From NCBI GenBank assembly GCA_964023275.1, contig OZ029916.1, positions 21,753,889 through 21,817,888 of the forward strand: DNA of 64,000 nucleotides. The letters run 5' to 3'. Of the stretch, positions 2,206 to 31,090 are shown in pieces (the stretch's first letter is position 1; the number at the start of each line of letters is the position of its first letter). A program made the position numbers and the translations under genes. The notes below the pieces were generated by a model, which had not been told where the DNA came from, did not search any database, and saw only the letters and a program-made list of their open reading frames with translations. Source of the DNA: Norana najaformis (taxonomy: Eukaryota > Annelida > Clitellata > Crassiclitellata > Hormogastridae).

Positions 2206-3554
2206 TTGGTCTTAACTTTATTTCCCATGTACACTTGGATGCCCCAATAAAAATCTTGTCATGTATTGTAATGATATGCATAATCTATGCACTAACTTGG
2301 TATCCATATAATTAGAAAACAAGTGTCACGGATAGGTTGATGTTACCACATGACTGTAAGTCATCAGAAATCTCTTGCCACATTGTCTCATATCTTCTGC
2401 TCGTGACTTGGAACCTTTGGCTTTTAATACTTAAGAATAACCCTATTATAGACTTAACATGTTGTATATAACAGGACAGTAGTGGTATTTTATTTAAAGT
2501 TGAGATGAAGGAAAGCAGTCCCTTTAAGCTAACCCTAAGAGGCAGACATGGGTATGAAATGTTAGCAAGTTCATTTTCTTAGCTTTGGAACATGGGAGTG
2601 GGTAACCAGGCCTCTCCCTTGCAGCCTGATCTTCCCAATGACAGTGCACAGTCAGGTGATGCGTTTATAGTTTTTCAAGCTCTACCAAAATTGATGTCAT
2701 TAGAACCTACAAGAATAACTGTTAATGAGCCATACCACTCAAGTCGTCCAGCTTGAACTTTGAGGCTGTAATTCACTCTGTCCAGGGAAAGTGCTGGAGA
2801 GCTCGGCCTGTACTTAAATTGAAACCCTTCAGTTGAGAGAAGAAACTGCTTAGCATTGTTCTCCATGCTTCTTTACCAGAGCTGAGTGGGTACTGTTAAG
2901 TCAACAGCTGTTTGTTGTCATTTATGTAATGGTCCTTTTTCGCAAACTCAGTGGGTGCAGTCACAATGTGTTTCAGAAAATTTGAGGTATCATTCGAGGA
3001 AAACTAATGAGACCCCTTCCGTTTGTTGAACAGTATTGGCTGAAGATCAGATGCGGGCAAAAGGGAAATTTTCCACTGTTTTCTTCTTTTCTTTGCCTTC
3101 TACGTTTATGCAGTTTCTTTTTTCCTGACTCACATGGCTATTATATGCTTCTGAAATGTTGCCAAGGAATGATAGGTCCGGCGCAGGAGTGCAGCCTTTT
3201 GGGCCATGCAGAAAGTGAAGCTAAATACACACTTATGATGTCAGCTACAGTCCAGACATGTTTTCTTTTTGTTAAGCTGGTGTCAATATCATCATGCTTT
3301 GTTGGTCTTGGCAGCCAATACTTCTCCTCGTTTCTGTCATCTTTTTAGAAAAATTACTTTGAGTGAGGTGTTCAGAATTTATTATGCTTGCAAACTAAGC
3401 TGTATTTTTGAGAGAATGAGCTTCAAACTGAGCTTAAAACACCTTAGTAGGTTTACATTAAATGAATTACAGGTTGACAGCCTAGCTATCTCACCTTTTC
3501 TTAATAGCTTGCTCAGTTATATATCCACTCATGCTTACTCATGTTTATTCACTT

Positions 3555-3586
3555 TGATGGATTGATTGTTTGACTGACTGACTGAC

Positions 3587-3647
<61 letters not shown>
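3555..3647. repeat. (TTGA/CTGA)n tetranucleotide microsatellite
   Basis: About twenty tandem TTGA units, with CTGA units at the 5' end. The array ends some 20 bases before the PROX start codon. It carries the last in-frame stop upstream (3643-3645), and a CAGCAG tandem acceptor follows at 3651-3656. The array therefore probably sits at the 3' end of a 5'UTR intron. Confidence 0.9.
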
Positions 3648-3669
3648 CAACAGCAGCAAATGCAAAGCC

Positions 3670-6378
3670 ATGTCTGAAGAAACTGCCTGTGAGAATCTAT
3701 CACCAGCATTGCAGGCTACTGCAAAGGAGCCTTTGATGGTAGACAAGTCTGAGGTGACCATTCAGGACACTGACAAAAAATCCTTAGAGTTGCCCACAGC
3801 AGATGGTTTGTCTTCAAGATCAGACTTCAGTTCAAGTGAAAATTCAGGGAATCCCCACTCGAATGAGAGTGGAGAAGAACTGCCAAAAGTTACAAAGGAA
3901 CCAACAGAAGTGTTGAACAGTGAGCACAATGGGGAAAAACTCACAGAGGGGAATATTTCATCATCCGCAATCAAGATGCAGATGGAAGATGAAAAACGGC
4001 CACAGCTTAAGGCACTGGAGACCAGATCACAATATCATTCTATTCAGCAACTGTCGTCACCTTCAACCAAATGGAATAAATCTGTAAGTTGTGCTCCTCG
4101 AATTTCCTACAAGATCTCTGACATTGTAACTCCATCAAGGTTCTATGGTGAAAGTGGAAAACATTCTTTCAGTAGCAGCACTTGTGAAAACATGGAAATT
4201 GCAGCCCAGTCAGAAGATGAAGATGAGGTTCAGAGGAGAGCTAGGTATTCTGGAAAATTGCTTCGTGATGCCCAGGTTATGAATTATGGTTGGAGTGCAC
4301 ATGAGGCTCGAAAGCCTGTGTACCAGGGAAACCTGTGTGACTTTTCCGATGAGGAGGAGGAGTTTCTGCAAACCAACATTCATTGTGATAGTGAATCCGT
4401 AGAAGACATGAGTGACATGGAAATGTCTGATGGTGGAAGTAGAAGCCATGATGGGTCTGTAGGTGAAGTACAGGAGCGGGAAGCACTGCCAAATGTGGAG
4501 GAATCAAGTCAAGGACTGGATGGAGTAGATGAATTTGTGCTGACAGATGTTGGATTCGAAGGCAAGATGGAGGCAAAGAAAGCCAGAGTTGAGAATATTA
4601 TAAAGACAATGACACCACTGCACAAAGGAGTTCTGCACTCGTTTCCAATATGTCAAAGTTTTTCAGCTGTGAGCAAGCTATCTGAGAACCGTGACAAGGA
4701 GTTTTCTCTGGGTTCTGTCCATGATCAGGCAGCTGAGCTGAGGCGACCAAAGCGGAAACAGTACATTCCGCAACAGGTTGATCCACGAGGCGAACAGCAT
4801 GACCTTCCACCAGCTGCCAAGGTCTGTGTCATGGAGAGGGATGCTGTAGGCAGTGAGCTGCTGAAGGTGCAAGAAGGTCTCAATGAAATGCAACAGAAAT
4901 ATAAGCAGATGCTAGATTGTGACCATGAGGTATCATTTAGTTTTTCTGACCATGATGATTCCAAAGACGACAGTGAAGAGAGATCAGAGAAGGCACACGG
5001 CCTGTCAGATGTCAATCAGAATGATGTAAAGAGTGTATCAAGAGAATTTCATCAGGCATTGAGCAATGGTGGTGATTGGCTGCTGGACATGGCAAATGAA
5101 AACACAAAGGATCTTGGACTCAACGGTTCAGTAACCAGCCTGGAGCAACTCACAAGAATTCTCAAGACCCAGATTACAAGTGGTGTGGAGCGCTTGGTTG
5201 ACAACTTTTTGAAAACGTTTCTAAGGAAGTGCTTTCAAAGTACTTCGAGAGATGGAGCAAAGAGTATGGAAATGATGTCACCCAAAGTAGCTGCTCCTAA
5301 ATCTTCCAGAAAAGAAGGCTTTGCCAGGCATGACTTGAAGCTAAAGGATGAATTGATTAGGATGGATAGCCGCATGAAAGATGAAGTAATTGGGCAGCTA
5401 CAGAGAGGTGATTTGTCAGGAACAGGGAGCAACGTTAAGGATGATTTATCAGGATCAGGAAACCATGTCCAAGATGATTTCCCTATTGCAACCAGTCAGA
5501 CAAGGGACAATTCAAACTTTCCTGAACGAAAAAGAAAAGCAACAACTCCACTTACCTTCACAGCACCAGTCTACCATGCTACTGGTAGAAGTGGTGTTGA
5601 TGTCAGTAGTCACCTGCCAACACTGCCACCACAACTAACAATGCAGCCACCATTTCCAGTTCACAGTTCAATCCAAGATGGTGGCCGCCCAAGTCTTTCT
5701 TGTGAGCGCAACAAAGCAGCCGAGAAATATCGCGAGCACTACTTCGACCCGCACAATGGAGGTGCATTTGGGATCCCACAGTCCCATCTGTCATTGTTTG
5801 GGCCACACCACCCACACCTCTACTATTCCCCGTGCATTGGGAAATTTCCACCCGCTTTTGTGAAGGAGCAAGAGCAGATGGAGCCACTGCCACTTATTGT
5901 TGGAGCACCAAAGAAACCAAAAAGAACCAAGGTTATTGACAGGGTTTCACCTCGAGCCATCCGATCAGTTCCCCAGGAGACTGCAACCCAGAGTGATGAT
6001 GGATCAAGGCAACTTCAGGATTCACCTGGAAAGTCTTTCCATCCAGCACCACGCTATCATCCTGCTGGACCAGTGCACGATGCATTTCCACACCCATCAC
6101 TGCTTCCTTTTGGTCTCGCTCCATCTGTAGCTCTTCACAATCAAAGTCTTCAGCAACATTCCTCACTTCTCCAAGCCATGTACTCTCAGATGCCCGCCAT
6201 TAACCATCGAGAAAAACCCTCATCTTTGTCATCACCTTGCCGGAAAACCCCACCATACAGTTCATCATCTGACTTGGCCAGTGCACCCAAGTGTTTCCAG
6301 AAATGTGAGTCAGATGCTTCAATGTACGACCAGATGATGTCCGACTCTATGATGGCAGTTGGCAGCAGCCACAGTTTC
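3670..6378 (+). CDS. prox1: PROX coding exon 1 (N-terminal regulatory region)
   Basis: Encodes 903 residues ending SSHSF, phase 0 at the 3' end. Rich in Ser, Asp/Glu and Pro, with acidic runs ([15 protein letters not shown]) and basic clusters (PKRKQ, PERKRK, KKPKRTK) that are candidate nuclear localisation signals. The frame stays open to 6525, but residues after 6378 lie in the U12-type intron: the sequence at 6379 is the minor-class donor ATATCCTTT. The 5' boundary may include untranslated bases after the CAGCAG acceptor at 3651-3656. Confidence 0.92.
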
Positions 6379-9300
6379 ATATCCTTTGGTTTAAAATTGC
6401 TTTTCATTTGCACAATAAATATCCATAATTCAGAGTCTGTTCAGACAGATTCAAGTAGTTTAATTGATTCACGTCCTTTCCGTTTTCCCTTTCTGCAAAA
6501 TCTTTACTATTTGCATAAAAGCTAAAATTATACAGCCAGAGCTGTAAATTTTCATAACCCTGCAATTGCTGTCGTGGTGTTGCACAAGTGCTAGTTAATT
6601 CTGCTGAAAGTATTTAATTGATGTGAAAATTTTAGTTGCCCCTTAATTACAAATTCGGAAATTCGGACAGCCCTTTGTATATGCAACCTGCATGCCTGGC
6701 AAAAAACCGACCGGGTCATTAGTACTGAGTTGCATCGTCTCTCCTTACGTTACAGTACTATAGCTTGTAGCTCCTCTGTGTACTTCACTTACGTGTGAAA
6801 TAGAAAAAATCATTTTGCATTATTTGGTATTAGGGAAAATTATGCTGTGGTTTTGCATTGCATAACACATCAAGTTACACCAAACAACGCCGCTCACAGT
6901 GACTTTCTGCATTAGTTTCTGAGGTATACACATGCAAGTATCTGTTCGGTTTAAGGTTATATTTGGCCATTTGAAATCTGTCATGGGTTTTGTCACAGTT
7001 TCAATCCTTAACATTGGTTTACACCAGCACGCTAACACCAATGCATCTGCGCAAGGCAAAGCTCATGTTCTTCTATGTCCGATATCCGAGCTCTGCGATC
7101 TTGAAAGTTTACTTCCCAGATGTGAAGTTCAACAAGAACAACACTGCGCAGCTCGTTAAGTGGTTCAGCAACTTCAGGTAGGGCATTTTAAACTTATGGC
7201 TTTTTATTGCAGTTGTAATTACACAATTATATAGAGCCACTTCATGAGAAACTAATCAGAAGTACTGTTGACACTAGCCTTAGTGGTGTTAAATGTCGTT
7301 AAGAACAGGAACTCGTCAGTACATCACAAGCAATGCTCAATTAGCTAGAAAAATCACCAGTTGTGGGCCCCCATGCACACACTGAGCTCAACCAACGGAT
7401 TCCCATCCAGAGTTGATAGTTGACGCCATAATCAGAGTTCCTGAACGGCATTTAACGATGATTACAAAATAACTTTGATACCTGGATGCTGTGTTGTCTT
7501 CCATTTACAAGGGACTGACTGACAGTGAGACAACCATGAGCCTTTGACGAGAGGGGCCTCTGAACATGCTTCAGGAACTCTGAACATGCTGTGGTCTTTC
7601 AAGTCTAGTTGGGAATCTGTTGATAGGGCTCTATGTATGTGCGTGTGCTTGCCAGTGGTGACTTTTGTAGCTATCTGAGCAATGTTTGTTGACAGATGAA
7701 TGTTCTGTTCGTAATGACATTTAACAGAGGGACTATACAATTACAACTTCATCTTATGTATGTATGTATGTAAATACGTACGTATGTATGTATGCGCGTA
7801 TTGTGGTATGTGGAAAATCTTCCTCTTGGAACAGTATTCCCGTGTATATAAATAGGCAGCCTTTACATGGCTCAGTTCAACTTGTATTTACTGCGTTCTT
7901 TTAATCCCACCTGTTTTCCTCTGTTTGACAGCTTTGTATACATCTCTTTAAGAGTTCCTATGAAGGCCCTATGTGAATATCTTCATAAAAACGTGTATAC
8001 CTTATTTATTTATTTATTATATTTATTTAAAGCACTTGTAATGTGCCCAGTGTCAGTGTCCCGAATCGGAGGACAGAAACACATGCTGTATGTATGGTTC
8101 ATTAAATGTTGTCATGAATGCATTAAAAATCTAAAAATGAAATATTATGCATCATAATACGGTGGCTCCACATTGTGGCTTCCAGAGGCCTACAGCCTGA
8201 ACAAACCCTAGAAGTAGCTTGCTACGTATGGTACTAAACAAACTGTCATTATTAAATTGCAGTACATTGCAAATCTTGTGTATGGTTCATGCACATGATT
8301 CGGGTGTTTCAGAGGTAAGAAGGCCTGTAGCCTGGTAATCGCTGCTTGACTTTGATTTGCAGGGTTAAATGTTTTCGACTGTATTGTATTCTTAAAATGA
8401 CATTGTGAAAGCTTAAGAGATGTTTTGTCGAAGAAAACTGGTTGCTCGAATCACGGTGCCGAGTGAAGATTCTCAGTCAAAAGAGATTCATTGATACACG
8501 TATCTCAAGGCGCCGTCGTCAGCAGCAGCAGCAGCAGCAGGGATGCGCATCTGTCTCTTTTTGATTCTCTGTTCAAAAGTGTCGGCCGTTCGGCGTTATA
8601 GCGAATTGATTGCCGTATTGAACCGGCCTTTGCGGTCTCATCCATTTTTGATGATGAGATGCGAATTCCCGGCCGGCGTAGCCGTTCGTCTTTGGTCGAC
8701 GGTGCGTCTCCGAATCGTTTTGACACCCGATCGACCTTGTTGATCGTCGCCTTCCCAGTTGAATAACAGAAACGCCGGTGCTGTTGACTTAGCTGGTGTC
8801 GGTCGACTCGCTCGTATTTTTCATCTCCTCGAAAGCACCTTAGATGAATTAACTTATTAATATTAGATCGCGGCTAAACATCGGCTTCATCACTTGAGTC
8901 GCAGATTCGGTTCCCGAAGGTCTCCTATTGGATGCTGTCGATAAACAGACGGTTGTGTACACGTGGGCGATACTTGTGAGGCGACCAGACAGCGGCAGAC
9001 AGGCAGATCGGAGAGGCAGACAGGCAGATCGGAGAGGCAGATAGACAGACGTACGGAGGCGCCCAGATGGCAGGATTGTGACGCCGAGTTGTTTTAGTGT
9101 AGCCCTATGCTGTCGGCAAACAGATCATCACTCGTCAATATCAAGTGTATCTCATTTGACACAAGTACTTCCACGAGCTTACTTAAATACTAATGGGCGG
9201 GTTGGTGTTCCACGGGGTCTTTCATCTAAGCAAATCCCTGTGTGTATGTTTTAGACATTTCTATTACACCAATTACTGAACATGCCCTAAAAGCCGAATG

Positions 9301-12300
9301 CCCGAGATGTGGGTGGAGGTTTGGCTTTAATCAGTAGGTTTGAGATTTAGTTTGCAAGACATTTGAAAGGTTAGGGAAAATTATGCTCTTGTTTTGCATT
9401 GCATAACACATCAAGTTACACCAAACAACACCCCTCACAATGGTCTGGTTGCCCAGGAATACATTTTTGTGTTTTCACTCAAATCAAAAGACCCTTCAGT
9501 TCATATGTGGACTGTGCCCATGACGGCAGAGCTCTGTCTACCGGTAATAACCATGCTTTACTTTACCTTATATTTTTCTGGTTTTTTATCTAGAAAGAAT
9601 TAGATGATAATGTGAAGAGTTAAATTAGTGGAAATGTACTTGAGGACAGGCCAGCATAACATGGAAAACATCCTGGATATTGCCTTGGTCTTCCTTTTGA
9701 AACACAAAACAAAGGCATGCGGTCGTTGCTATTGACTGACTTGCAGACAGCACTGAGCAGTGCCTTGTTCAATTCAATGTCCGTGTTCCCATTGTCACAA
9801 AGAAATTGCACTGCTCGATTTTCTTGGCATTCAGCTCAAGAGACGTTGCTGCGTCTTGTGGCAGAAATAAAGGAAATTCAAATTGTGGCAATACGCAATT
9901 CAGTAGTGCAGTAATCGTTGTGCACGTCACCAGCTATGATTTAGCATTCCGTTTACCTTGATGTTTGCTTGTCTTTATTCGGCTCGCATTGATCACCACT
10001 GCAGATTGTGGTCGAATGATAATACAGGAAATTGTTGAGATGGCGGCAAATAATTAAAAACAATCCGAGGTCTACGCTTCCGTTTGCCAGTGATGGGTGG
10101 CAGCATTGATCACCAGCTAATTGAGAATGTGTTGCGGACAAAAGGAATTGGGCAAGTGCACTTGGATACCTGCACCGACAATGATGACTCGGGACGTTTC
10201 AGTTGATGCGGGTCAGGTAGAAAAGTCCTCCCTTCTTACACAAATTATATTTGCAATTCTTTTCGTCGAAGGTATACCACTGCGAGTGCACGATGGAGCG
10301 AGACACGGTTGCATGAATGGACGGCTTTTTGCTGAGGGTAGTGCTGCTTTTATGATCAGTCGCCTTTTGTGCTCAAAGTGTATTTGATTTTGATCCAAAG
10401 TCACTCCGGGTCCGATCAAGATGGCGACGTAATTGGCAAGTGAATCGACGGTCTTCCTCAGGACAGTACATTAGCGGCATTGTCGCCTCGGATTCATTCG
10501 CGATCCTCTCGTTATGTAAATATTGCTTCAACAACGCGGGACTGGCGACGAAGTTGATATTGTTTTTCTTTGCTGGTCTCTGGAGCTGCGTGTGCCGGAA
10601 AAGCTAGCCGCGCGGCGCAGGGCACGTCCAATGTCTTTATAAATCATTTCGATGGCTTGCAATCGCATAAAGCAACGCTGTCTGCGTGGTTATCAACCTA
10701 CAGAAGTAGGGCGAAAATGAGTGCATTCATGATCCCGTTCGCAATCACGGGTCATCTTGTTCGCAGTCAAATGCTGTTAGTGGGACAAGGGGGGTTATGG
10801 TGGGACAAGCGGGGCCTTGCCTTGTTGTCACACTCAATAAAACTAAATGAGACTGTCTCCGATCGAGTGTGAATTATGTCCAGTCGGAACTGAGAACTGA
10901 ATATTTGGAATTGAGAACAGCGACTGGCCTTTATAATATGCACATTATGGTACGAACTTATAACATTTTGCTACTGTCTGCAGTCTATATAATTTCTTTC
11001 ATTTACTTAGCGCTATGTTGCATTCCAGGTATGCTTTTTATGTATCAAATGTTTGCCATTAGTATTGAACCAAACATGTTATAATACTTGTCACTTCGAA
11101 CAACGAAATAATAAGATTTGAAGTTTTTTAAAAATAAAAACCTTTGTAATATAAAACCTCAAAGACTTGACCTTGGAAGAATTTTCCTTCAGTACTCTTC
11201 TCAGAGACTCTCTGTTTGAAGCAGTTGCAAGAGATGTTCCTGAGTTTTACAGTTTCACTCGTGCGGCGTATTCCTGTAGTCCAAAGTTAAGGCTTGGATC
11301 AAATATTATTTAATCAGAACAGGATACCCAGCAGGATGATCTGATGGACCCCCTGGGGTTCTGCATCACCATACAGCCGATCCTATGGCTGCTAAATCCA
11401 AGTTGAAGGTAGAGTTCCTAGTAGACCTGACACTGAGAGGCAATGTGGATGTGGTGGCCCAGGATGTTCAGCTGATCGCCCGGGAATTGGCTAAACTTGG
11501 ACTTCAGATCAACCCTGCCAAATGCAGTGGCTGTCTTCCATGATGAAAATAAAGTCAAAACTCTTGCTTTTTATGGCTTCTAGTACACACCATTAGGAGA
11601 GGTGATATATGGGAGCGTTTGGCACAGTAAACACCCATGCTCAGAAAGAACCATTAGGCCTAACCCGAGATATGATGGCAAACGAATGGATGGCGGGACT
11701 TTTATCCCATGATCTCACAGAAGGTGTCTCGTATGGGATGTGACAGTTTTAGACACATTTGCAGCATCATTTCTAGAATTTACATCAATGGGACCATGTG
11801 AAGCCGCAAACCGGGCAGTCTCAGCCAAAAGATCAAAATACATTGCCATAGCTCAAACCTATGCTTTCGTAGCACTGGAAACTAGCAGTGGTGCATGGAG
11901 TACAAAAGGGTTGGATTTGGTGTTGGAATTAGGATGTAGTTTGACTAGTGCAACCCACGATCCATCAGAAACCAGGTACCTGCCACAAAGTCTCTCGGTG
12001 GATGTCCGGGGTAGGAATGCCATCTGCTTTTTCAGAACTTTACCTTGTTAACCTGTTAAATACTCAAACATTTGCCTGCCATAGTTATTTCTTAGTAATA
12101 GTAATAACAATAATACCAGCAGCAGTAGTAGTAATAATAGTAGCATTAATAAAATAATAATAGTAATAATATTAAGCAACTTCTATATAATGTCTAATGC
12201 ACAAGGCATTAATGGGAATAATAATAACATTAATACGAGGCACATTCTCTGGCACAGTTTCACTAGAAGGGGCGCTAAACAAATTTCTAATAAAAAATTA

Positions 12301-15300
12301 CAATAAGATTTATTATTATTGTTATTTATTCTGGAAGTAGATATGATCCCTTATAAGATTTAGAAAAATGGGTGGAGAAAAAATCGTCTGTAACGGCTAC
12401 ATTACGCCAAGTTCAATCATAGCAAAAGAGCCATGGAAGGTAACGGCAGTGAAGCGCTGAATTATTATTTCTGTTTTTGTTATTATTTTTACCAGAGGTT
12501 AGAATGATCCCTAGGGAACAGAAAAGTACATTAAGGGGTAGATTGTTATTTCTGGGAAATCAGGCTGCATCCCTGATACCATCCGAAAAAGCACCTGAAG
12601 ACAATGGCTTTGTGGTGTTGGACACAGATGGAAAGGATTTTTTTTTATTATTATTATTATTATTCAGCTTATCAGTTTAAGATATTATTATTATTTTGTT
12701 TATTATTATTATTACTGTTGTTACTGCAACTACTACTACTATTATTTTTATTATTTTTTCAAGTATGAAAATAAAGTAACGATGAGAAAGGGAAAATGAA
12801 AACACACAATGATGGTGATGACAATAATTATAATCAGTTCAGAATGATTAGAGTAATCCAGGCCTCCGCTCAAACGTCCGTTTCAAGCAAGCAAAAATTC
12901 TCATTTGTGCCGAGGTTGTTTATGCTGGCCGAGTGGGGCCCTATAAAACTACTGCAAGAGCGTCGTTACTAACGTACCATCGAATATCCGGTACCGTAGT
13001 CGGTCGCCTGAGCGTCTGCAAGGCTCTGTGATAAGTGTTGCTAACTCCCGTCGTGGGATGATGAGGCCGAGGGACAGTCGTCGTCGTCGTTGGATAAACG
13101 ATATTTGTCTTGCAGGAAGTTTGAGGACTGAGTTGCAGCTGCATGCTGTGGAGTCAGATAATACTTCGTATGTGCCTACGATAAGGATGTGAAAAGGATA
13201 CGGCTGATGATGGTGTCGTGCCCTTTGCTTGATATCAAATCTGGGTTCATGCCTTGCAGCATCTGTTCTTGGGCCATGCGTCTGTTTTCTTTGCAATTAT
13301 TCAGCTCATCTTCCCCTCCTCCTTCCCTCCACCACCTTGTGCACTCGTCCACGTCCTCCTTCTCCGCCTCCTCCTCCTCCTTCTCCTCTTTGGTGATCAT
13401 GCACTGCTGAGTCCCCTGGATGCCACACACTTCTCGGTGTTTTCTTTATTAAAGTGAATATGGGATGTTTACAGCGGGAAGGGGGATGCCAATATGGCGT
13501 CCTTCATCATTTTGATATCTCGGCAGACCATAAGATTTGACAAAGTATGTTTAATTATCATGCGTGTGGAATGGCTTGTAATACTGCCAGAGAGTTTGAG
13601 TGCACTGTCGTTTCTCGATACAGCATCTGAGAAGTGCTGTAGATGTAAATATACAGAAAATAGGACATTGGCAAGGACTGGGCATTGGCATATGTTGAGG
13701 ATTACGAGTACATTGTAGGTGCCTTTTACATTCATTTCAGAAATTTCAAAAATGCAAAGATATAATGGCCTACAGGACTATAGGTAAGTGTAACAAGTGG
13801 GATTTCAGTTTTACCTGGTGCAATAAACATCCTATGATAAAGCAGTGGCTGAAACGAATCCCTCTTGTGACATAAGTGCATTTACTTTGATCAATCAGTT
13901 CTACAATCAGCTGTGTCCTGTCAACTAGTTATGTAGGGCTAAAGCAGTGTATGGCATTAAGGCTTCTTGAAGATCACTACTTATTAGGCCTAATAAAACC
14001 AATGTATGGCAGACAGACTTGAATCTGATGACAGTTAAGTTCTGTATCTTGTCTTCCTTTGTTTGCAACCGATGCACAAGATATTACTGATGCAGATAAA
14101 ATTGAAAATGTTCCTTGTGTTCAAGAGTACTTGATTATTAGTGTGTTAGTAATTACATACTTTTCACTTAATGCTGTTCCACAGTCCAAATGACTCACCT
14201 GCTTATATACGTGGGGTAAGTGGTCATTTAGAATTTGTTTTGAAGTCATATGAAATTACAGAATTAGCCCTTAGAAAAGTTCTGCATTCCTGATTTTTCA
14301 AAGCCGTTATTTTTGGTTTTAGTCATCCTTTGTTTCTGTAAACAGTTGTACCAGTAGATAACCATAAGTAATTGTATTGTATGTGTAACCCATAATACCG
14401 GTATTCAGGGTTACCACTTCCCAAGTTGGAAATATATGCCTACATTGTTTACATTATCAGGCATATGACCTTATGCATATATTATTGCAAAAAGAGTTTT
14501 TAGGTTGTTATTATTTTGTCATATATTACCCTTGTTTAGATGCTAGGATTATCTTTCAGTGTAGGGGTTTCATGGTAATTCTTCCTCCTTCAGGTTTTAG
14601 TAGCTTTGGGGTGATGGGTAATTGTTCTAAAAGTTACCATATGCATCTGTTAGACTGTCTAATATATATGCATTTGTAATATACCACATATTAGTTATAA
14701 CTAATTATTTTACCAAGACTATAGGGGCTGCCTGCTCAAATGTCTGGCCATGTGGTCCAAAGCCTGTGAAGCGAAGATAAGATGGCATTCAAATGAAGGC
14801 AGTAATTGAATAATTATGGCTAATTATGTCTTTATATCCTCTTACTAGTTTCTTCCACTAACTTGAATGCTTTGTAAATACTTTATATAGACAGGGCAGA
14901 CTTTATCAGTCTCTTTAGGATGTTCTTGATGCTGTACTTACTGCATCTGCATTCAGACGGACAGTTTTTAGCATCCTTTTTGCTGGAATTGTCCGACTCA
15001 AGTGATACTCAAAGACAAGTGGTTGATAACATCCACAGATGCCTTGCACTCTTCTTTCTAGTGAAAAAATCAAGAAAGTTCACATCATGTATCATCTACT
15101 TTCTAAAATCCCACGATCAACATATGCTCAAGGATGTGGCATTTTTCAGCATTTAATGTATCTTAGAAATTATTTGGTAGGACACTACTGACACAAATAG
15201 AAATATCTTTTGTGACTAATACATTATTCACCACAATTTACTCTGCACCAAGAAACAGAATATAATAAACAAGTTTTTAAATTTTTGTTTACGAATTCAG

Positions 15301-18300
15301 TGACTAACTTTATAATTTCTTCCAACCATCAGAATATCAGTTCCTTTACTGTAACTCAATTTGAAATGAACAAGTAGTGATGTGCATCAGTTATATTTTA
15401 TTGTTGTAATTACTATCATCATTATGATCATCATAGTCATCATTTTATTACTGCTACATTTATAGTTATTACAGGATATAAAGATTATCAGGCAGGCGGC
15501 CAAATGGTAATTTCCTTTCCCTGTAGTCTCGGTGGAATTTATTTTAAAGCCATTGCCTCCATTCTATGGGGTAATAGCCAGTATGTACCATTTGATCTGG
15601 TAAAATTCATGAAGTACCTGTCAAATAGGCTACTTTCATCATGGGGGTGGTTCTCAAATGATTTGACTTTTTTCCCTTATAAGGAATCCTGTTTTAATTA
15701 TGTGTACCAATGCATAATTAACCAAACGCATTTTATGTTTTCTTTTTCCCCATAAAAAATTATCAAAATCATCGTAGGGTTATTAGTGCCGACTTCATAT
15801 GCGGGCTTCCTCTAAAGTAAAAACCTCAGTGTGTGACAAATGATGATGGGTCAGGGATCCTTTTTTAGCAAAACCAAACTGTAGTGGAAATACAGTAATC
15901 ACAACTAGATTACTGTTTGCGCAGTCATTAACCGAGTAATTCAGTTCATTTTACGGCCTGAAAGAGAAACAGTTTCGTTCTTTCTGTTTAGCTTGATTAC
16001 GATTTTGGGAAAATCCTAAAAGTTTGCTTGTTTCTAGTTTTTTCCATGCACTGAGGCACGAAAATTGCAAGCTGCCAGTGGTGAACGAGGAACAGGGAAA
16101 CGGCACCGGCGTCTTAGCAGGAAGTTTGGGAAGTGTGTGGCATTATAATTGACAGTATCCGTTATCATCGTGGGTAATATTCAACAAGTGAATCAGTTTT
16201 CATCTTGGTCACTGAGTGGCTAGGAAATGTAGAGACAAATGTTTGAATTGAATGCACAGGCTACCAGAATATTTTTATTCAAGTTAGTACAGCAGGGTAG
16301 GAAATGGCGAACAGCCGTGTGACATTAGCATCAGGAAGTAAGTCAAGCTGATGCCCTGAAATGTAGGATTTAATGACTTGAGGCAACAGTGCCTTTCCCA
16401 AGCATACTCATCTGAACCTGAACGACGGATTTTGTTTAGGAATGGCAATCATTACTACTGCTTTGCACTACTTTATTACTTTACAAATTTTAGATGAGTA
16501 AAGAAATCGAAAATCTGACCAAGTGATTCACTGAATTTCATTGGCAAAGGAAAGGCGGAGGAGAGCATGATGGATGGCAGCATGTACCAAGAACTTGACC
16601 GACTACAGCTATATAAATACTAGCCTAACCCATGCAGACCATCTGCACTCTGGTGTTCCTTATGGGAAAATCCCGAGTTGCTCCCCATTGCTTAGGGTCA
16701 TTAAAGCCATTGCCAGAAACTCTCCCAATTTTGAAAATATTACCCCAGCATACCTCTGACAAACACAAAACCATTACATAAAAGATCTCCCTCGATAAAT
16801 TCACTGACAAATGAACTGGGCCAAGGCCTTACGATTCCCGTAGAAAACCGTGTAGATTTATATTTACATACATAAGAATGATGAACAGTTTATTATGAAA
16901 CTAATCTAGTCATTCAACAATGTTAATAAATTTCTTTATCCACACTATTTTCTGATCTGGTGAAACGATAGTTAAAGAGTAAAATGACCTTACTCATGAG
17001 AGAGCTACATGAAGGCAAGCATGAATAAATCTGGTTTTGATGAGTAAAGACAAATTCTCTCAAAAGTTTGATAGTTATAGAAAAGCTAATTATCTAAGGA
17101 ATTTTTTTATGTTTAAATTTAAAGGACATGTTAGTATCTGATGGGATAAGTGGTATTCAGAGTATGAAAATAATCTTTGCATTAACCATAACAACCATTC
17201 TAACTTTCACTATTGGATACATTTGCAATATACTATGTATTTGTTTCAAAGATTTGTCAAATGGAGTTTTGTTTCATAACTTCAAGTCCAATCTAAATTA
17301 TAATTTGTAATCAGCCTAGGTTACCATCTATATGTTTGTCTGTTGCTTTTCTGAATCTATGTAGTTGTCCGTACCCTGGTTTATTCTGTTTGTTCATGTA
17401 CAATGGAGAAACTCAATGGTAAATTTGTCCATGAATACAAAAACAGTAAGATCCTTTTCCTGGAGGTGCTTTAATTTCGGCTCCAACTGACATGAAGGCT
17501 TAAGAATAAATGTTCTCCAAAAAATTGTTCAAGTGAAACTTTTCCATTGTGACAGCATTTGGTGTATTTCTGAGAAATGTTGTATTCATTCAGCAATAAA
17601 TTGCACCAGAGTAATTGCAAGTGTGAGTAATATTTCCACATTATATTCCTTAATGCTTTCAAGATTTTTAAGCTGAAAGTTATTAACACCTTTCATTATA
17701 ATTTCTGGAGCATGTTCTTTTATCTATGTAGTTTAGATTGAATAGTCAATTTTTGGTTGCATAGTCAATTTTCTCGTGTGCACAAACTGTGATTGGCCCA
17801 TTTTCTTCAATCTCTATCAGCTTGCTTTCTTTCGGTTCTTCGTGTCTCCTTTGGCTGACTCGTTTGCTCTTTTCTTGCTTCTTTAATCTCTGTCGGCTTG
17901 ATTTCTTTCAGCTTTTCTGCTGTTTGTTTCTCCGCAGACATACTGGCTTACTTCACTCTGCATCTGGCATTCCTGTCACAATTCATCTTGAAACAATAAC
18001 AACAGAAATATTTTGCAGCTAAAACAATGCAACATCACCAGCTAAAATAACTTGTACATGCTACATTTCCTTACATTTTATAGCTTACATAACCTTTGTA
18101 GTCTTTGACATCACACTAACATGAACTATTTTGTGACTGACTGATGCCAGCCAATCAATCAGTCGATTCGTCAATCAAGTAATTTAGGTAAATCAGTGAC
18201 TGTATTCACTGGGAACATGGTTCTGTCAAATATACTGCCCGTTAACTGTGACGGGTAGTTGCAAAATTATATAGTCTATGCTTATTTACATAGCAACTTT

Positions 18301-21300
18301 AACAAATCACTCAGTGGCACTAGAATGTGAAAAAGTGAAGACAGTTGCTGGTTTTAAACCTCATCAAAAATAATTAGGCAACACCAATTCTTTTTATGGG
18401 TGTAAACTTACAGAAATCTGGCACTACGTCATTCGTGTTACCCCAACTGCATGCATCAGACTTATTGATGTCACTAAGGGAGATTTTCACAAACTACAAA
18501 TCGTTGAAACTCTCACGCCAAAGCCATAACTAAGACCCCTAAATATCAGCATACTAAGCCAATATTATATTTATTGCACTGGCTTCCCATTGAGCAAAGA
18601 ATTCATTTCGAAATCTGTTCTACCTAAAGTTCGAAAAGTACTGTTTAAATCAGCCTATCTGTCTGCGTTCCATGCTCACCCCTCACACTAATTGATATTG
18701 CCTTCGATCCTTGGACACTGTGACTCTGGATGTGCCCCGTACCCAAACAGCGTTGGGTTCTCTGACCTTCTCGGTAGCTGGTGCTAAAGTTTGGCATTCA
18801 ATTCAGTTCGTTCTGTTAGTTCTTTGATGCCACTCAGGTCTTAACTAAAGACGCTTCCCTTTCAACTTGCTTACCCACCGAAGTATGAGTACTGGTTTCT
18901 CTGATCTATCGGAATTCGACCCGGCTTCTCCAATGGATTATGATTTTGATTGCATTTTGACTGAAGCGACCCTCGAATGATATCTTGGGCATTTTGATAA
19001 CGGCGCTATAGAAGTCTTTCAGACGTCGGGGAGCCATGGCAACAAAGGCGCCGATGCTCTCACAAGTTTTGGCTCTGTAACGCCGAGGTAGAAGCATGCT
19101 CACACAACTTTTTGGGACAACAGAGATATCTACCTATACCACAGAATAAACATTAATATTATAAAAAATATTATAAAACATTAATATCATAAAAAATACA
19201 GTGATATATACTCTGGTATTACGTCACAAATTTTGCAAATGACGAAATATTCTTTTCCAGTGGTTGCAAAAAATGACAAAAATATTCTTGTAGATTATAT
19301 CGGATATAATGTATAATTTTATCCACCTAAGGTCTGTACTTGGCTGAGGTTGGCTCACACAACTTTTAAACACTTCCAAGTCTTTAGATTTGATTAGCAA
19401 TGACTCTGAACTGTTACGACTTATGTGCGCTGGTTAACTCCAATCTGGTTTATAATTTACATAGAACGCGGACTTGTCTGGATCCAGATTTTGACCTACC
19501 AAACTCAACCTATGAAACAACATTAGTGTGCGAAATTTTCTGTTTGAGCCGCGCCTGTGTATCTTTTGCAGTTACGGATTACGCAATTGCAGCGCCATAC
19601 ATCAGTGGCAGATGGCATTGTAATCTCGACTGATTGACTGACATGGCGGCATGTGTTATTGTCATCTCAGTTGTGCTTGCCATGGCTGAGACGACGACTT
19701 TCTAAAACGATATTTACTACCGAACTTACAATACTTTACATCTTACCATATCATAAAATTAAAGAATGTCATCTTAACATGAAGTAATATCTTACATTTG
19801 GTCCTGTATGTCGCCTTATTTAGCCTATAAGTCTCATATTATTCACCAGAACACTAACTTTTCCCTAAACATCCAGCAGGCAAATTGTCTAAGCTTCAGT
19901 TTCATTTGCATAGGGCTCCACTCAGTTGTGGATTTAGCTATAGGCGTGGGGACGGTTCGCCCGCCCCTGCACCTTTTGGTTATATGCCGGTACCCCTCAG
20001 ACCAGACCTGGGCATGGTGGATTGCCAGATTTTGAATGTGGCGCTCATCTGGAAATGCTCGCCCCCCCACGCAAGCAATCCTGGAGCCGCCACTGGCTCC
20101 ACTGTCGACTCCCAACGTGCCCACTTACAGCTGTAAGCCTTATATATAATGTATATGTAAATTTATGCGTATTTATAGGTAAATATATAAGTTATGTGTA
20201 GTAGCACACTAAGTGTATAATAGAACATTTAGAAGGCGGTTTGCCTAGAAAAACAGCTATGTTTATCGTGTTTAGAAGCGGGTGTCATGTAGAATGGGGA
20301 GATGTTCACGGAAGAGATTTTCATTGACCCTTCGACAACCATTGTATCTACAGAAAAGCTTATGGCCGACATGTCAGCGCTAGCAGGATCTGCCTATTGT
20401 CTTACTCTGTCGGAGGTTATTAACTGACAATGGGTGGATGTCTCAAATGATCTCTAATCGCCTCTGGTCTTTATGAAGAGGGGTAATTGGCTGTGTTGGC
20501 GCCATGCACTGTTGGCCGGCAACTCAACTTTTAAATATACGGAAAGGTTGTGAAGTTTATTAGAATTTTTATTTGTGGGATATAGCACTTTCTTCATGCA
20601 TGTGGCAGTCAGGGTGGTCATTAAGTTTAGGGTTCATAGCACTCTAAAACTTAATGAAAATTGAGTATAAGTTATCTGTTACTTCAGGACAGACACCCGC
20701 AATTGGCATTGAGCAACGGATACAACAGTTGCTAGCTGTTGAAATAGGCCAATACAGTTCCGTAATTGTAGAGGTATAACATCCCAAATGATAATAATAA
20801 ATCAATCAAACGTTCTATGAAACGGCTTGTACCAGTAGTTGGCTGTTTTCGGTTGCTGTTGTGTTTGTGTCATAAACATTTATTTATAAATGTCAATGTT
20901 TAATTATGTGTTGCATGAGTATGTGCTACAAAAGTTTCGCTGTTCAGTTTTACTTGAACAATTTTCGACAGGGAGTTCTACTACATTCAGATGGAGAAGT
21001 ACGCACGTCAGGCCCTTGCGGAGGGTGTCAAAAGTGCAAAAGACTTGGTGGTCACGACTGACGCTGAGCTTTACAGGATTCTTGTTGTCCATTACAATCG
21101 TAACTGCCAGATAGAGGTAAATATCAGAGAAATTGTGATTAGTTACATTAGTTACTTTAAATTGTGTAATCATGTGAATGTGGTTATACAAACCGGTCTA
21201 ATTGGAGCAGATCTTAAAATCTGAATATGGACTTTTTAGATATTTGGATGTAACGAAAAATAAGCGATATTTTCAGAGTGTTTGAGAGTTTGTTTAAGAA

Positions 21301-24300
21301 CACTATTAATTTTTGCAGATAACTTTTTGAAAAATTACTATTCATTCCATTAAGTTTAACATCAAGTAATGTAATGCAGTCTTTTAAATGAATGGTAGCA
21401 AATGCCAGCAATTCAAGTTTTAAGAACTTGCGTGCGACATATCCTACATTCATAATTCCTCCTCTCCCCTTATTTGTCTTGCTGCTCCAATTCCAAACAT
21501 CGTCCACCTTAGCCTTCTGGCTGTCTGCATGCCTGACCCTTGGATCTTAACAAGGAATCCAATCGAATCTGACCCTACCTGTGTGGATAACCGCGGGGGT
21601 GTGACTTAGCCCAGTTCTACGCTTAGAGCCACCCACATCACTCCCCTTCCACTCTCAATGTAAGATGGCCGTTCCATACCATCTCTGTCAATAGTGTGCC
21701 TTCGCTCCAAGGAAGTTTCGGGATTGGCCGCTTCCTTGAGGGAGTCAAGGATGTAAACCTCTGGCTAGGGGTCCGACTGTGCCGCTTCCGCGGTCTCCGG
21801 ATGGGCAGAGTCCTGAGTATGGCCGTTCTCAGAACAGGGCTTGTTCCTTTGCCGGCAATAGCCATTCCCTTTGTGTGTGCCTTCTTTAATATGGGTTTCC
21901 TTTTCACCACCACTCTGCTTCTTGTAACTCTGGAAATACCGCCATGTATATGAGACGCCAGTCGTTCTCTTAGTTCCTGGCAAAGGGGAGTCTTACGGCA
22001 AGTCTCTGTCACTCCTTTCTAGTAGGCTAACTAGGGTATCGGGCAACGCATCGCCCTACTATCACACTTCTCACTCCATTTCCGTGTGTAGGACTCCCAG
22101 CCTCACGCGTGTATGTGTCATGCACCACTGCTTGAGTAGTAAGTTCGCGTACCAGAACTATGTTGGCAATTCCGGACCGAACAACTTAATTATAAATCTA
22201 TTAGGCCTATCCGGGCATCACTGAAATAAAATATTATTCATAAATCTTATCTATAGACAAGCCTTGTGGTCGATTCACCACACCTACCTATCGATTTTGT
22301 TTTGACTGAGCGCCTGTGAATTTAATTGGTTTCTGCGACGTAGAAGAAGATGCAAAGTGGCGGGCTTTCTTTGGGCGCTGTGGAAATCTCGAGTTTACGA
22401 TTACGATAATGTGACAGTATAGGCCTTAGCTGCGAGCCTGCAACGTACGAGAAACGGACAATTGCCGCGTGTTGGGTAATATGTAGGGAGATGTTGCGGT
22501 ACGTTTGCAAACGGTTAGTAATAGCTAAGACTAGTAGGGTTATTGACAATAATTATCGTTTTACATTTACAGTTGTTTGTTTAAGCGATGCTACGTGTTA
22601 CCGCACGCAATGTTGTTTAACCAGTCCTGAGCAAAGCGTTCTGGGGATGTGAGATAAGTTGCTTTGAGGCAAAGCACCTGCCTATAGGCAGCTCACGTGA
22701 CCAGACTGAAGCCAAGAGGATGGCGGAGTAAGAGGAGCTGCGGTGCCTGAGTTCATTTATGTGGGAGATCATGTGACGGGTGAACTGTTGTTGGCTCTTG
22801 ATATAGGCGAGACTTCTTCCAGGGTCGTGGTGTCTGTTAGGGTTCGCGCATCATTTAGGCGATGACGCATAAGAGACGAGTTGGAATTCATCTTGGCAGC
22901 CGGAAATGATGTGGCCGGTTCTCTGATTAAGACGCCTTTGACCTTCGCTAATAATAATTTAATAGCTAGCTGAATGATTCCCACTTAAGTGTGCATTGTT
23001 ATTGTTAGTGGATTTGTTGTTACAGCTGACGATGTTTTTATATACTGTTACCGTCCTCATTCCCATTGAAATTTTCTGCTAAGCGATAATAGAGGAAAGA
23101 ATAGACTTTGAAAAATTCTATAACGAATAACAACTGAAATGAATATTTATTATTGTCACTGTTGGTTATTATTAAGTAAACTGTTCGTCTTGCTGTATTA
23201 AACCCGTTGACCCAAATTTCTTCAAAATCCAATTGGAGATAGCCGAAGCTGTAGCTAGCATCAATAGATTTGCTGGATGTTACCATGAAAGCTGTGCCCT
23301 TGGGTGCATATGGACACGAACAGAACTACGGCCTTGCCTCAGACGGAGCTAATGCCACGAAAAAAGCAAAATTCTGCAATCGTTTCTGTTCCATTCGCAA
23401 CACCGGCGCTTGTTCTGTGGTCGTCTGCTTTGGTTATCTCCTCCCACCCATTCACTCGACCGTTCGCCCCATCAGCCTGGTTCCATCCGCCAAAGTGGTC
23501 GGTTTCCTGCTCCCGCGTTTCTTTGTCCCACCGCGCATTTTCTCCGATTGCTACGCGCGCTTGTTATTCGAGCGGTCTTCACCCGATTTTTGCGAATGAA
23601 TGGCTGTCTGTCCACTGCAAATTGATTGATTGCCTGATTGTTTAATTGACCTTTTCATTCGTCTGTCCGCTTATTCATTTGTTCTGTCGTTCCGTGCGTC
23701 CGTTATACGGTCGACTCAAGAATTACCGACATCATCGCGCGTCGTCTCTGTTTCAGTGGCTCGCTTCACGCATGCGCAGGTGATTAACCGGAATAATGGC
23801 CGCGTTTTCGGTTTATAATAAGTAAGATGAGCGTTGATGTTTATGGTGTGCGGTCGGTTGGAGACAAAATGTGACGGCTTCTGGCAAAACAATAAGTAAT
23901 TTCCCGTAGGACAATTAGCAACAATAAATTGTGACAGGATGACATCAATCATTTCTTTGAGGCGACTATCTGGCGACGATCATAAATTGTCATAAGCGCC
24001 GTAGTTGTGTGGGCTTCCTTGGCTGTTCCGCAACCTGTCGACAAACTGCCCTACGGATAAAAAGGTTCGATGTTTGGTAAGAATACCATTGCACAGTATT
24101 CGCGTCTCTTCGGAGTTAGGCCTAAGTCAAAATTCCGAACAATTCAGGATGATGGGGTAGTTTGGTGGCGACGCGCTGCACGTGCAAAGTGCCAGCGCAT
24201 GAAAGAACAAGCAGGTGTAAAACAGTGCAGTAGAGACTGCTCCTGTCCGTGGCATTCAAGCTGCTTGAATTGTTTGCTGCAGCCGACGGGAAGATGTGAA

Positions 24301-26743
24301 AAATTGCAAAGCATTTACAGCAGCTGCCATGCTTGCTACAGTTGGCAAAATGTCACTATAAAGAGTAGTAATTGTTAAGAAGGTATTTAAATGCTGACAG
24401 TTATGTTTTACTCACAGACACTGAGTTTCTGTTATATTTGATAACTTGATACAAAGTAATACAGCAGGATGATAATTATTGCAAAATTTCTGAATCTCAG
24501 AGATAAATTAGCATTTCCCTGGTCCATGTATAATAGAGACAGAAATCTGATGGGATCTTTGATTAGAGCCACTGTTTCAATGATTACAGTTTTTGAAATA
24601 TTACAAGACTTACAGAATTTCACACTGTAACACCTTTTTATATATTAAGATTGTATGTGACTATGGTGGATATAAGGGACCACTTGTTATGAATGGACTT
24701 AACATTTCTCATAAGCTGATACCTTAAGGAAATCAGGTTAAAAATGACAGGACATTTGGTCAAAAATTTGTATACACTTGTTACAAAATTATAAATTGCA
24801 TATGAAAGTTCAACCTGTCTCTGCTCGATGTTTCCCTAACAGAAATTGGCTGTAACGTAGCATACGGCATAATGGATACAGTTTGTAGTACAATGAACTA
24901 GAGATGTAAATGCATTAATTAGAGGCAAAGATCAATTTCATGGTACTAGGGAAAGACCATATTCGGCTGATACAGTAAGCGATTAGTGGTCCCTTTTCTC
25001 CCCCAAGGGTCACATATATGCAGGGCAAAGAACATAACACAACCAGTTGAGGCTGTGCACTTGTGCATTACCCATGGGGCTGGGCTGTTTTATCGGCTCC
25101 ATGAGACCTAGCAGCTGACCTGCTTGTTTTTGCCCACATCTAATCTGTCAGGAATTGAATTTTTTCATTGGTGAGTTATCCTTCCCTCCATCATGAACTT
25201 GCCAAAAGTTGATTGTCCATCGGTAGGCTTGTCTGACAATACATACAAAGTCTTACTTCTTTTTTATTTAACAAACTCTGTCTTAGGCCAGAATGTAGCC
25301 AAAATGTAGAAGTTTTCAGTCAGTCAGTCGGTCAGGCATTCAATTGGTCGGTTGGTCAGAGTAACATTGAGTGCAAGAAAAGATTTATTGTTTGTTCTGT
25401 TGGCGCTATAAAAGTTTAATTGATCATCTGTAAATGATAGCTAGAATTAGTTTGCTCAACTTTACTGTAAGTTGGAGTTACAATTAGCAGGGACCAGGTG
25501 TGCAGTTCATCACTTACCTTGAAGTCTTGGGTCATAAAATTTTGCCCTGTGGCCATAGCAGAGACAGTTGTGTAGTGGACAGAGCTATTGTGGTCAAGAC
25601 AGACTGACCGTTGGTAGTAGCCTTTTGCACGAATTATTTGCTGGTGGCCATTTTGATTGCAACAGAAATTTTCATTGTCCATCCATTCTTTGTGACTGTC
25701 AAAACTTGGCCAACTTCCCAAAAAATTGGGACACTTACTGCACTATTATGTATGTATATATATATATATATATATACACATACATATATATACACTGTGA
25801 CATGCAGTCCTGTATCAACAAATTAAACACTAGACCTGCTCATGATTGTGCAGCGTTCTGCTGCCAGGAGGAGGGACACTCCCTAGTGAGTGAAACAAGC
25901 AATAACATAGTCTTCAGCCATGAGGACATATCAAGCAGCATGAAACTGAATAAATGAATATGATTCTGGCATATACTGCTCATAATTTAAGGCATTATGC
26001 ACCGAAGCCTAATCCAGGGCTGGGTTCCGGGAGGACAGATGGACTTGCCCCCCCCCCCCTTATTGAGGCAGGAGTGCAGAGGACACACCATGCATTTGTC
26101 CCAATTATACTGACTACATTAAAGTGTCGTTTTCATCAATTTTTCACTTTTAATAGCCCAAAGCCAGTTAAGGGACGAAAGTAAAAGTACATTAGCAACA
26201 CTGAGAAGTGATATAAAAACGTCTGTTGTCTGACATGTCCCCAACTTTTCTAACCAGATAGCTGCCATTGGCCTGATCACAAATCTGTATGTTAAAACAT
26301 ACTGCATAATTATTAAAATATGATAATTTAATAGGATTGTTACTTGATCAGTGAAAATATGCAATAAAACTTCTTCTGCCCTTACCCAAGGCTCATTTAT
26401 AGGCTTCTTTATGTATATTCTGCTGATGTTATCTCTGCTTTGTTTATAATCTGTTTTTTTACTTTACAAAGTGATTGTTCATTTTGACATGCGAGCTGGG
26501 GCAGTTCAAAGCAAAGCTGTTGTTCTAAACGTGTTTGATGTTGTTGTTATTAATTAGGTTCCGGAAAACTTCCGTTATGTCATTCAGGCAACGCTGCGTG
26601 AGTTCTACACATCAATCGTTGCAGAGAAGGATCAGGAGCCATCTTGGAAGAAAGCCATCTACAAGGTGATTGCCCGGATGGATGATCCTGTCCCAGATTA
26701 CTTCAAGAGTCCAAACTGGATGGAACGACTTGCTGATGGATGA
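3670..26743 (+). CDS. prox1: Prospero/PROX homeobox transcription factor (whole spliced gene)
   Basis: Sequence-specific nuclear transcription factor of the Prospero/PROX family, which controls cell-cycle exit and differentiation in nervous and other tissues. The coding exons 3670-6378, 7023-7177, 20972-21116 and 26558-26743 join in frame to 1064 codons plus TGA. Exon 1 carries the weakly conserved N-terminal half, including family motifs: [12 protein letters not shown] at about residue 302, a basic PKRKQY motif at about 359, an amphipathic segment at about 492-516, and EPLPLIV at about 738. Exons 2-4 encode the homeo-Prospero domain (about 905-1062), with [43 protein letters not shown] and PDYFKSPN. 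The protein is longer than human PROX1 (737 aa) because of the N-terminal region, and closer to insect Prospero in size. Introns are AT-AC (644 bp), GT-AG (13.8 kb) and GT-AG (5.4 kb). ATG 3670 is the first start after the in-frame stop at 3643. Confidence 0.95.
6379..6387 (+). promoter_or_regulatory. U12-type (AT-AC) 5' splice site of PROX intron 1
   Basis: The nine bases ATATCCTTT match the minor-spliceosome AT-AC donor consensus exactly, and follow codon TTC in phase 0. No GT donor of reasonable strength in the right phase lies near the end of exon 1. The partner branch site and AC acceptor are at 7004-7022. Confidence 0.85.
6831..6900 (+). repeat. 70-bp direct repeat, copy 1 (inside PROX intron 1)
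   Basis: Begins TAGGGAAAATTATGCT and includes TTTTGCATTGCATAACACAT. Nearly identical to 9372-9441 (roughly 90% by eye), in the same orientation, 2.5 kb apart. No similarity continues beyond either end. Confidence 0.85.
7004..7012 (+). promoter_or_regulatory. U12 branch-point sequence
   Basis: ATCCTTAAC matches the minor-class branch consensus TTCCTTRAC at all but the first base. It lies about 11 bases before the AC acceptor at 7021-7022, inside the tight window U12 introns require. Confidence 0.85.
7023..7177 (+). CDS. prox1: PROX coding exon 2 (start of homeo-Prospero domain)
   Basis: Encodes residues 904-954 plus two bases of Arg955, beginning [20 protein letters not shown] and ending KWFSNF. 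This is the divergent homeodomain with its recognition-helix residues. Donor AG|GTAGGG, phase 2. The start is set by the AC acceptor, which restores the frame exactly to exon 1. Confidence 0.95.
7757..7794. repeat. (GTAT)n microsatellite
   Basis: Tandem GTAT units with a few CGTA variants. Confidence 0.8.
8520..8541. repeat. (CAG)n microsatellite
   Basis: Seven uninterrupted CAG triplets. Confidence 0.9.
8985..9050. repeat. 21-bp tandem repeat
   Basis: The unit GCAGACAGGCAGATCGGAGA (20 bases shown) starts at 8995 and again at 9016, with degenerate GGCAGA/TAGACAGAC continuation. Confidence 0.85.
9372..9441 (+). repeat. 70-bp direct repeat, copy 2
   Basis: Second copy of 6831-6900, in the same orientation, in PROX intron 2. 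Differences cluster at TGTGG versus TCTTG and near the 3' end. Confidence 0.85.
11310..12052 (+). mobile_element. Decayed non-LTR retrotransposon: reverse transcriptase fragment and C-terminus
   Basis: One frame reads [12 protein letters not shown], then [20 protein letters not shown] and INPAKC, the block around the reverse-transcriptase active site. The catalytic (F/Y)xDD has decayed to FLVD. After a gap, 11740-12052 reads [25 protein letters not shown] and [14 protein letters not shown], and ends [12 protein letters not shown] before a stop. I recognise this as the C-terminal tail that follows such reverse transcriptases in marine invertebrate genomes. Stops and frame changes show it is dead. 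A trinucleotide-rich tail follows. Confidence 0.75.
12095..12260 (-). repeat. (AAT)n tract with 3' end of a dispersed element (family A)
   Basis: AAT/AGT repeats run directly into AGCAACTTCTATATAATGTC and TAATGCACAAGGCATTAATGG. The same junction occurs at 41108-41200 and 56105-56240. On the minus strand this reads as an element body ending in a (TTA)n tail. Confidence 0.65.
12640..12760. repeat. (ATT)n / AT-rich trinucleotide tracts
   Basis: Runs of TTA/ATT and ACT triplets flanking a short unique stretch. Confidence 0.85.
13310..13395. repeat. CCT-rich polypyrimidine tract
   Basis: Nearly pure C/T on the plus strand (CCTCCT, CTTCTC units). Frames across it are compositional artefacts. Confidence 0.8.
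18545..18860 (+). mobile_element. LINE reverse-transcriptase C-terminal remnant
   Basis: Reads [22 protein letters not shown], the well-known 'LHWLPV..RI.FKI' block downstream of the RT domain in CR1/L2-like non-LTR elements. Frame-broken sequence follows ([12 protein letters not shown]). 5'-truncated and inactive. Confidence 0.7.
19915..20103. mobile_element. hAT-type MITE, copy 1, with perfect 8-bp target-site duplication
   Basis: Element 19923-20095 (173 bp) has terminal inverted repeats: the left end is CAGTTGTGGATTTAG and the right end reads CAGTGGCGGCTCCAGG on the opposite strand. It is flanked by exact 8-bp duplications GCTCCACT (19915-19922 and 20096-20103). The 8-bp duplication and CAGTGGCG-type termini fit the hAT superfamily. 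It has no coding capacity. A related copy in inverse orientation is at 27319-27492. Confidence 0.85.
20972..21116 (+). CDS. prox1: PROX coding exon 3 (homeodomain / Prospero-domain junction)
   Basis: Completes Arg955 and encodes [20 protein letters not shown] and HYNRNCQIE (to residue 1003). Acceptor TTTTCGACAG|G, donor GAG|GTAAAT, phase 0 at the 3' end. The intron after 'HYNRNxxIE' falls at the start of the Prospero-specific half of the domain. Confidence 0.96.
21478..21560 (+). mobile_element. LINE 3' end (family B), first part of interrupted copy
   Basis: CCAATTCCAAACATCGTCCACC and CATGCCTGACCCTTGGATCTT align with the family-B 3' end seen complete at 40015-40205 and again at 43526-43700. 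Similarity stops near 21560 and resumes at about 22282. Confidence 0.6.
22282..22405 (+). mobile_element. LINE 3' end (family B), second part with GATTAC tail
   Basis: Starts CTATCGATTTTGTTTTGACTG and ends GGCGCTGTGGAAATCTCGAG then TTTACGATTACGATAA, the terminal (GATTAC)n-like tail of family B. It carries a short extra insertion relative to other copies. Confidence 0.65.
25743..25797. repeat. (TA)n/(TATG)n microsatellite
   Basis: Alternating TATG, TA and ATACAC units. Confidence 0.9.
26558..26743 (+). CDS. prox1: PROX coding exon 4 (Prospero domain C-terminus)
   Basis: Encodes [40 protein letters not shown] and [13 protein letters not shown], followed by TGA at 26741-26743. Acceptor TTAATTAG|G, phase 0. 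The whole exon is the Prospero subdomain, and the protein ends two to three residues after the conserved 'FKSPN..E.L' motif, as in the family. Confidence 0.97.
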
Positions 26744-30574: not shown

Positions 30575-31090
30575 ACCGTAGCACTATGTTGCTTCCTCCG
30601 GCTTGACCATCCCCGGATTCTGACTTGGTACTAAAACTGACCAACCAACCGTAGCATTATGTTGCCTCCTCCGGCTTGACCATCCCCGGATTCTGACTTG
30701 GTAATAAAACTGACCAACCAACCGTAGCATTATGTTGCTTCCTCCGGCTTGACCATCCCCGGATTCTGACTTGGTACTAAAACTGACCAACCAACCGTAG
30801 CATTATGTTGCCTCCTCCGGCTTGACCATCCTCCGGATTCTGACTTGGTACTAAAACTGACCAACCAACCGTAGCATTATGTTGCCTCCTCCGGTTTGAC
30901 CATCCCCGGATTCTGACTTGGTACTAAAACTGACCAACCAACCGTAGCATTATGTTGCCTCCTCCGGCTTGACCATCCTCCGGATTCTGACTTGGTACTA
31001 AAACTGACCAACCAACCGTAGCATTATGTTGCCTCCTCCGGTTTGACCATCCCCGGATTTTGACTTGGTAATAAAACTGACCAACCAACC
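30575..31090 (+). repeat. 73/74-bp minisatellite, seven units, derived from a LINE 3' end
   Basis: Units start ACCGTAGCATTATGTTGCCT at 30575, 30648, 30721, 30794, 30868, 30941 and 31015, ending GACCAACC at 31090. Spacing is 73 bp, or 74 where CCTCCGG replaces CCCCGG. Variants alternate (GGTACTAA/GGTAATAA, GGCTTG/GGTTTG). The unit resembles the 3' end of the adjacent LINE (CCACCGcAGCcgTcTGactg, GGATTtTGACcTGG). It is not CRISPR: there are no unique spacers. Confidence 0.95.

Follow-up and report, generated by a model that had tools for sequence, protein, structure and literature searches.

The DNA analysed here, referred to as the window, is a stretch of 64 kb that carries on its plus strand a PROX/prospero gene at 3670-26743, with four coding exons and a spliced product of 1064 residues. 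Counted from the ATG at 3670, coding exon 1 (3670-6378) comprises 903 codons, as read from the open frame and the spliced translation; this ATG is the presumed start codon and, like any 5' UTR exon, a putative element of the gene model. The open frame at 3646-6525 is by far the longest of the two frames of at least 150 amino acids in the window, and it consists of the long first coding exon and 48 codons of read-through into the first intron, up to the TAA at 6523-6525, just as the original prediction had warned. Searched alone, exon 1 matched no Pfam family at E-values up to 0.1, and its membership in the PROX gene therefore rests on frame, length and position.

Coding exon 2 (7023-7177, plus strand) encodes the first part of the homeodomain and is followed by intron 2 (7178-20971), a phase 2 GT-AG intron with the sequence characters of the U2 type (CAG/GTAGGG...CGACAG/GG). 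Coding exon 3 (20972-21116), which continues the homeo-prospero domain, intron 3 (21117-26557), a GT-AG intron in phase 0 (GAG/GTAAAT...AATTAG/GT), and coding exon 4 with the stop codon (26558-26743) complete the gene, all on the same strand. Exons 3 and 4 were located via text patterns in six frames and are backed by matches in the Protein Data Bank (PDB) and by the spliced translation. At the upstream end, a (TTGA)n microsatellite of 23.5 copies (3554-3647) is separated by 22 bases from the presumed start codon, and a CAACAG is found between the two; the microsatellite may be located directly upstream of a 3' splice site belonging to an intron in the 5' UTR.

The identity of the gene is defined by the domain encoded in exons 2-4. 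Exon 2 alone matched the homeo-prospero domain in Pfam (PF05044, HPD; E = 1.4e-27), and its protein also matched the structures of Drosophila prospero (1mij, 1xpx) and human PROX1 (2lmd). A query of 167 residues, consisting of the last six residues of exon 1 followed by exons 2-4 joined, recovered three distinct PDB sequences at E-values up to 0.001, all of them aligned without gaps: Drosophila prospero 1xpx (7e-83) and 1mij (8.8e-80), and human PROX1 2lmd (4e-66). The matches to 1xpx, 1mij and 2lmd begin at query residues 7, 8 and 7, which is where exon 2 begins. The joins between exons 2, 3 and 4 are confirmed by these alignments, which also fit an exon boundary at 7023; the exon 1 side lies outside their reach. 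Judged by its sequence, the gene is a prospero/Prox homeobox gene with the homeo-prospero domain in place. When prokaryotic genome contigs and viral contigs were searched for the exon 2 protein, 85 and 10 stretches, respectively, matched a pattern and none was confirmed, as expected for an animal gene.

The first coding intron (6379-7022, plus strand) is located just before the homeodomain and has AT-AC ends, a length of 644 nt, phase 0 and the sequence signals of a U12-type intron. Exon 1 ends with GGC AGC AGC CAC AGT TTC at 6378 (GSSHSF), the intron starts with ATATCCTTTG at 6379 and ends with TCAATCCTTAACATTGGTTTAC at 7022, its last bases being TTTAC, and exon 2 starts at 7023 with ACC AGC ACG CTA ACA CCA ATG in the same frame as exon 1. 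The original prediction, which had read SSHSF followed by a U12 donor and an AC restoring the frame, was exact in these coordinates. Joining 6378 to 7023 (TTC/ACC) in phase 0 keeps the frame of exon 1 open into the homeo-prospero domain of exons 2-4. Along the same path, the GC content is 0.46 in exon 1, drops to 0.365 in the intron and stands at 0.471 in exon 2.

We tried AT...AC joins from ATs at positions 6340 to 6419 with the ACs ending at 7022, 7024 and 7030, and nine of these keep an open frame into exon 2; the full ATATCCTT donor is present only in the combination of 6379 with 7022. For that donor, the AC at 7021-7022 is the 3' splice site, being the only one of the three that keeps the frame. 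The ACs at 7024 and 7030 were rejected as 3' splice sites for the donor at 6379, with which they break the frame.

The signals inside the intron were compared with the published U12 consensus, ATATCCTT for the donor and TCCTTAAC for the branch site (PMC2831892). The 5' splice site, ATATCCTTT at 6379-6387, agrees with the donor consensus in 8 of 8 positions (6379-6386), and the branch site TCCTTAAC at 7005-7012, which is spanned by ATCCTTAAC at 7004-7012, is likewise an 8 of 8 match. The two candidate branch-site adenosines, A7011 and A7010, lie 11 and 12 nt from the end of the intron, and thus inside the optimum of 11-13 nt reported for the distance between branch site and 3' splice site (PMC3584512). 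It had been stated that the branch motif lies 11 bases before the AC; this holds when counted from the second branch-site A (7011) to 7022, whereas the AC follows the motif after a gap of 8 bases. Scored as a U2 site with splice-site matrices that give only rough values, the donor at 6379 reaches -14.5 bits, as against 10.0 and 7.8 for the two GT donors of the gene. A distinct polypyrimidine tract is a feature that U12-type introns lack, but the pyrimidine content of the 20 nt before the acceptor does not discriminate, with 65% in the AT-AC intron and 60% in each of the GT-AG introns.

Could the U12 motifs be a chance match? Taken one by one they could well be, for in 200 dinucleotide shuffles of the window, counted on both strands, the donor 8-mer ATATCCTT is expected 2.7 times and was seen once, and the branch 8-mer TCCTTAAC is expected 1.9 times and was seen three times (once on the plus strand and twice on the minus strand), so that neither word is rare alone in 64 kb. 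What is rare is to find the two words as a U12 pair, in the right order and in frame, precisely at the boundary of the homeodomain exon. A donor and a branch site on the same strand, 50-1500 bases apart and with an AC close behind, were found once in the real sequence and are expected 0.025 times per shuffled window, a figure that leaves the in-frame join before the homeodomain exon uncounted. In shuffles of the intron itself, TCCTTAAC appeared within the last 30 bases in 6 of 5000 cases. Moreover, other Prox genes are known to carry the intron at this position (PMC2831892, PMC2956630), and we consider a coincidence most improbable. The alternative of an ordinary GT-AG join between outer sites, used instead of or beside the AT-AC pair, would combine a donor at 6324 (AAT/GTACGA) with an acceptor at 7027. 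This pair, of moderate strength, keeps the frame, both sites being in phase 2, and the acceptor scores 3.8, similar to the other two acceptors of the gene. The donor, however, scores 4.1, a value matched or exceeded by 9.2% of the 3668 plus-strand GTs in the window, and is therefore not notable and evidence of nothing. Such a join would also delete 20 residues and give no reason for the presence of a precise U12 donor and branch site, which makes it very unlikely. There is a similarly slim prospect that the two pairs compete, as a prospero splice switch that evolved independently in this lineage; if so, the switch would yield a protein that is 20 residues shorter just before the homeodomain.

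In a twintron of the Drosophila kind, the AT-AC intron has a competitor in the form of a U2 GT-AG intron nested inside it, and a longer form is made. Such an arrangement would need a GT in the open stretch 6380-6525 in phase with an AG located in the open part of the frame before exon 2. One in-phase AG is present, at 6997-6998 (phase 0), 24 nt upstream of the last base of the AC; its score is 4.1, comparable to the 2.7 and 4.0 of the GT-AG acceptors of the gene. The sole phase 0 GT in 6380-6525, at 6439, scores -6.4, in contrast to the 7.8 and 10.0 of the gene's own donors, and the best GT in that stretch, at 6455, scores 2.7 but is in phase 1, for which the open frame before exon 2 holds no AG. 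With all GT and GC dinucleotides of 6380-6525 scored, there is no phase-compatible usable donor, and thus no nested U2 intron of usable strength in 6379-7022. Since the nested sites are also described as having arisen early in insects (PMC3564746), a twintron at this locus is highly improbable, and the parallel to the fly that the original prediction had drawn does not extend to the nested intron. A possible U2 pair of another kind consists of a GT donor at 6305, near the end of exon 1 (AAT/GTGAGT, 8.1), and the AG at 6755, which is the best-scoring AG of 6420-7100 (8.3). Upstream of 6975, the frame leading into exon 2 is closed, and a join of 6305 to 6755 could therefore give only a truncated form unless followed by a further splice.

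We return to the AT-AC intron and its relatives. The vertebrate Prox genes and fly prospero have been described as carrying a U12 AT-AC intron where the homeobox begins (PMC2956630), and Table 2 of Lin et al. (2010; PMC2831892) lists pros/PROX1 as AT-AC, with a twintron in the fly and a U12 intron in human. The U12 intron of prospero is called ancestral and the nested U2 sites are dated to the early insects (PMC3564746), and use of the U2 intron inside the AT-AC intron is reported to make the fly protein 29 residues longer (PMC3564746; PMC8329584). The gene studied here resembles Drosophila prospero (pros, CG17228), whose intron 2 is the twintron, in having a U12 intron with AT-AC ends at the beginning of the homeobox, and its exon 2 protein is near-identical to that of the fly; it differs in that no U2 intron of usable strength was found here, whereas a competing one is enclosed in the fly intron. 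Among the vertebrate Prox genes (human PROX1, zebrafish prox1b), the coding region of zebrafish prox1b has three introns, as here, whereas the start of the human PROX1 homeodomain, LSPNHLKKAK, differs from that of the gene in the window. Competing minor and major introns have also been described in SRSF10, where the U12-type intron has AT-AC ends, as here; the gene is unrelated to PROX, however, and its U12-type intron embeds a U2-type intron.

On these grounds, the intron at 6379-7022 is very probably this animal's copy of the ancestral prospero/Prox U12-type AT-AC intron, and the sequence evidence points to a plain minor intron, with no indication of a twintron. The original suggestion of an ancient minor-spliceosome AT-AC intron shared with fly prospero thus finds support both in the sequence and in the published comparisons. 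Removal by the minor spliceosome, use of the 6378/7023 join and orthology with the intron of fly and vertebrates would follow from this reading, and the orthology is in all likelihood correct, given the place and the subtype described in print for the fly and vertebrate genes. A survey of more than 3000 eukaryotic genomes reports vertebrate-like densities of minor introns in the other deeply diverging deuterostome clades, with the exception of tunicates (PMC10639083). Among the literature matches listed, mostly from non-subscription journals, none treats this Prox/prospero intron outside insects and vertebrates, which is weak evidence of absence.

On this reading, U11 and U12 would pair with AUAUCCUU and UCCUUAAC in the pre-mRNA and the minor spliceosome would remove the 644 nt, so that at the TTC/ACC junction the long first exon would run directly into the homeodomain. 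As no U2 intron is nested inside, the region preceding the homeodomain would be expected in one form only, and PROX RNA that remained unspliced would stop at the TAA ending at 6525, with the loss of the DNA-binding domain.

The shared U12 intron of the prospero/Prox genes is already in print, and the case presented here is ordinary for the gene family. It would add one further animal to those in which a gene regulating development has retained a minor intron at an unchanged position, and it agrees with the order proposed in the literature, in which the U12 intron is the older element and insects later acquired the nested U2 sites. For annotation, the locus calls for caution, as a gene finder that allows only GT-AG introns would misjoin exons 1 and 2 or extend exon 1 to the TAA at 6525.

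Across the 64 kb, no member of the 4227 Rfam families scored up to its gathering threshold, and the window yielded no tRNA. Inside the second coding intron of the PROX gene, a short open frame at 11340-11543 (plus strand) resembles part of a reverse transcriptase, with a Pfam match to RVT_1 that stays below the cut-off (E = 0.15), and is probably a decayed retroelement. On the minus strand, at 59669-63061, two open frames show weak matches to fibronectin type III domains (E = 0.0072 and 0.34, both below the Pfam cut-off), and in the PDB the second of these frames weakly matches the netrin receptor DCC (E = 0.19); the two may be exons of an opposite-strand gene. Five of the 20 listed open frames of the window were submitted to Pfam, the other three of which were without a match. 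Finally, a tandem array at 30575-31090 is built from seven copies of a 73-base unit, with 96% matches.
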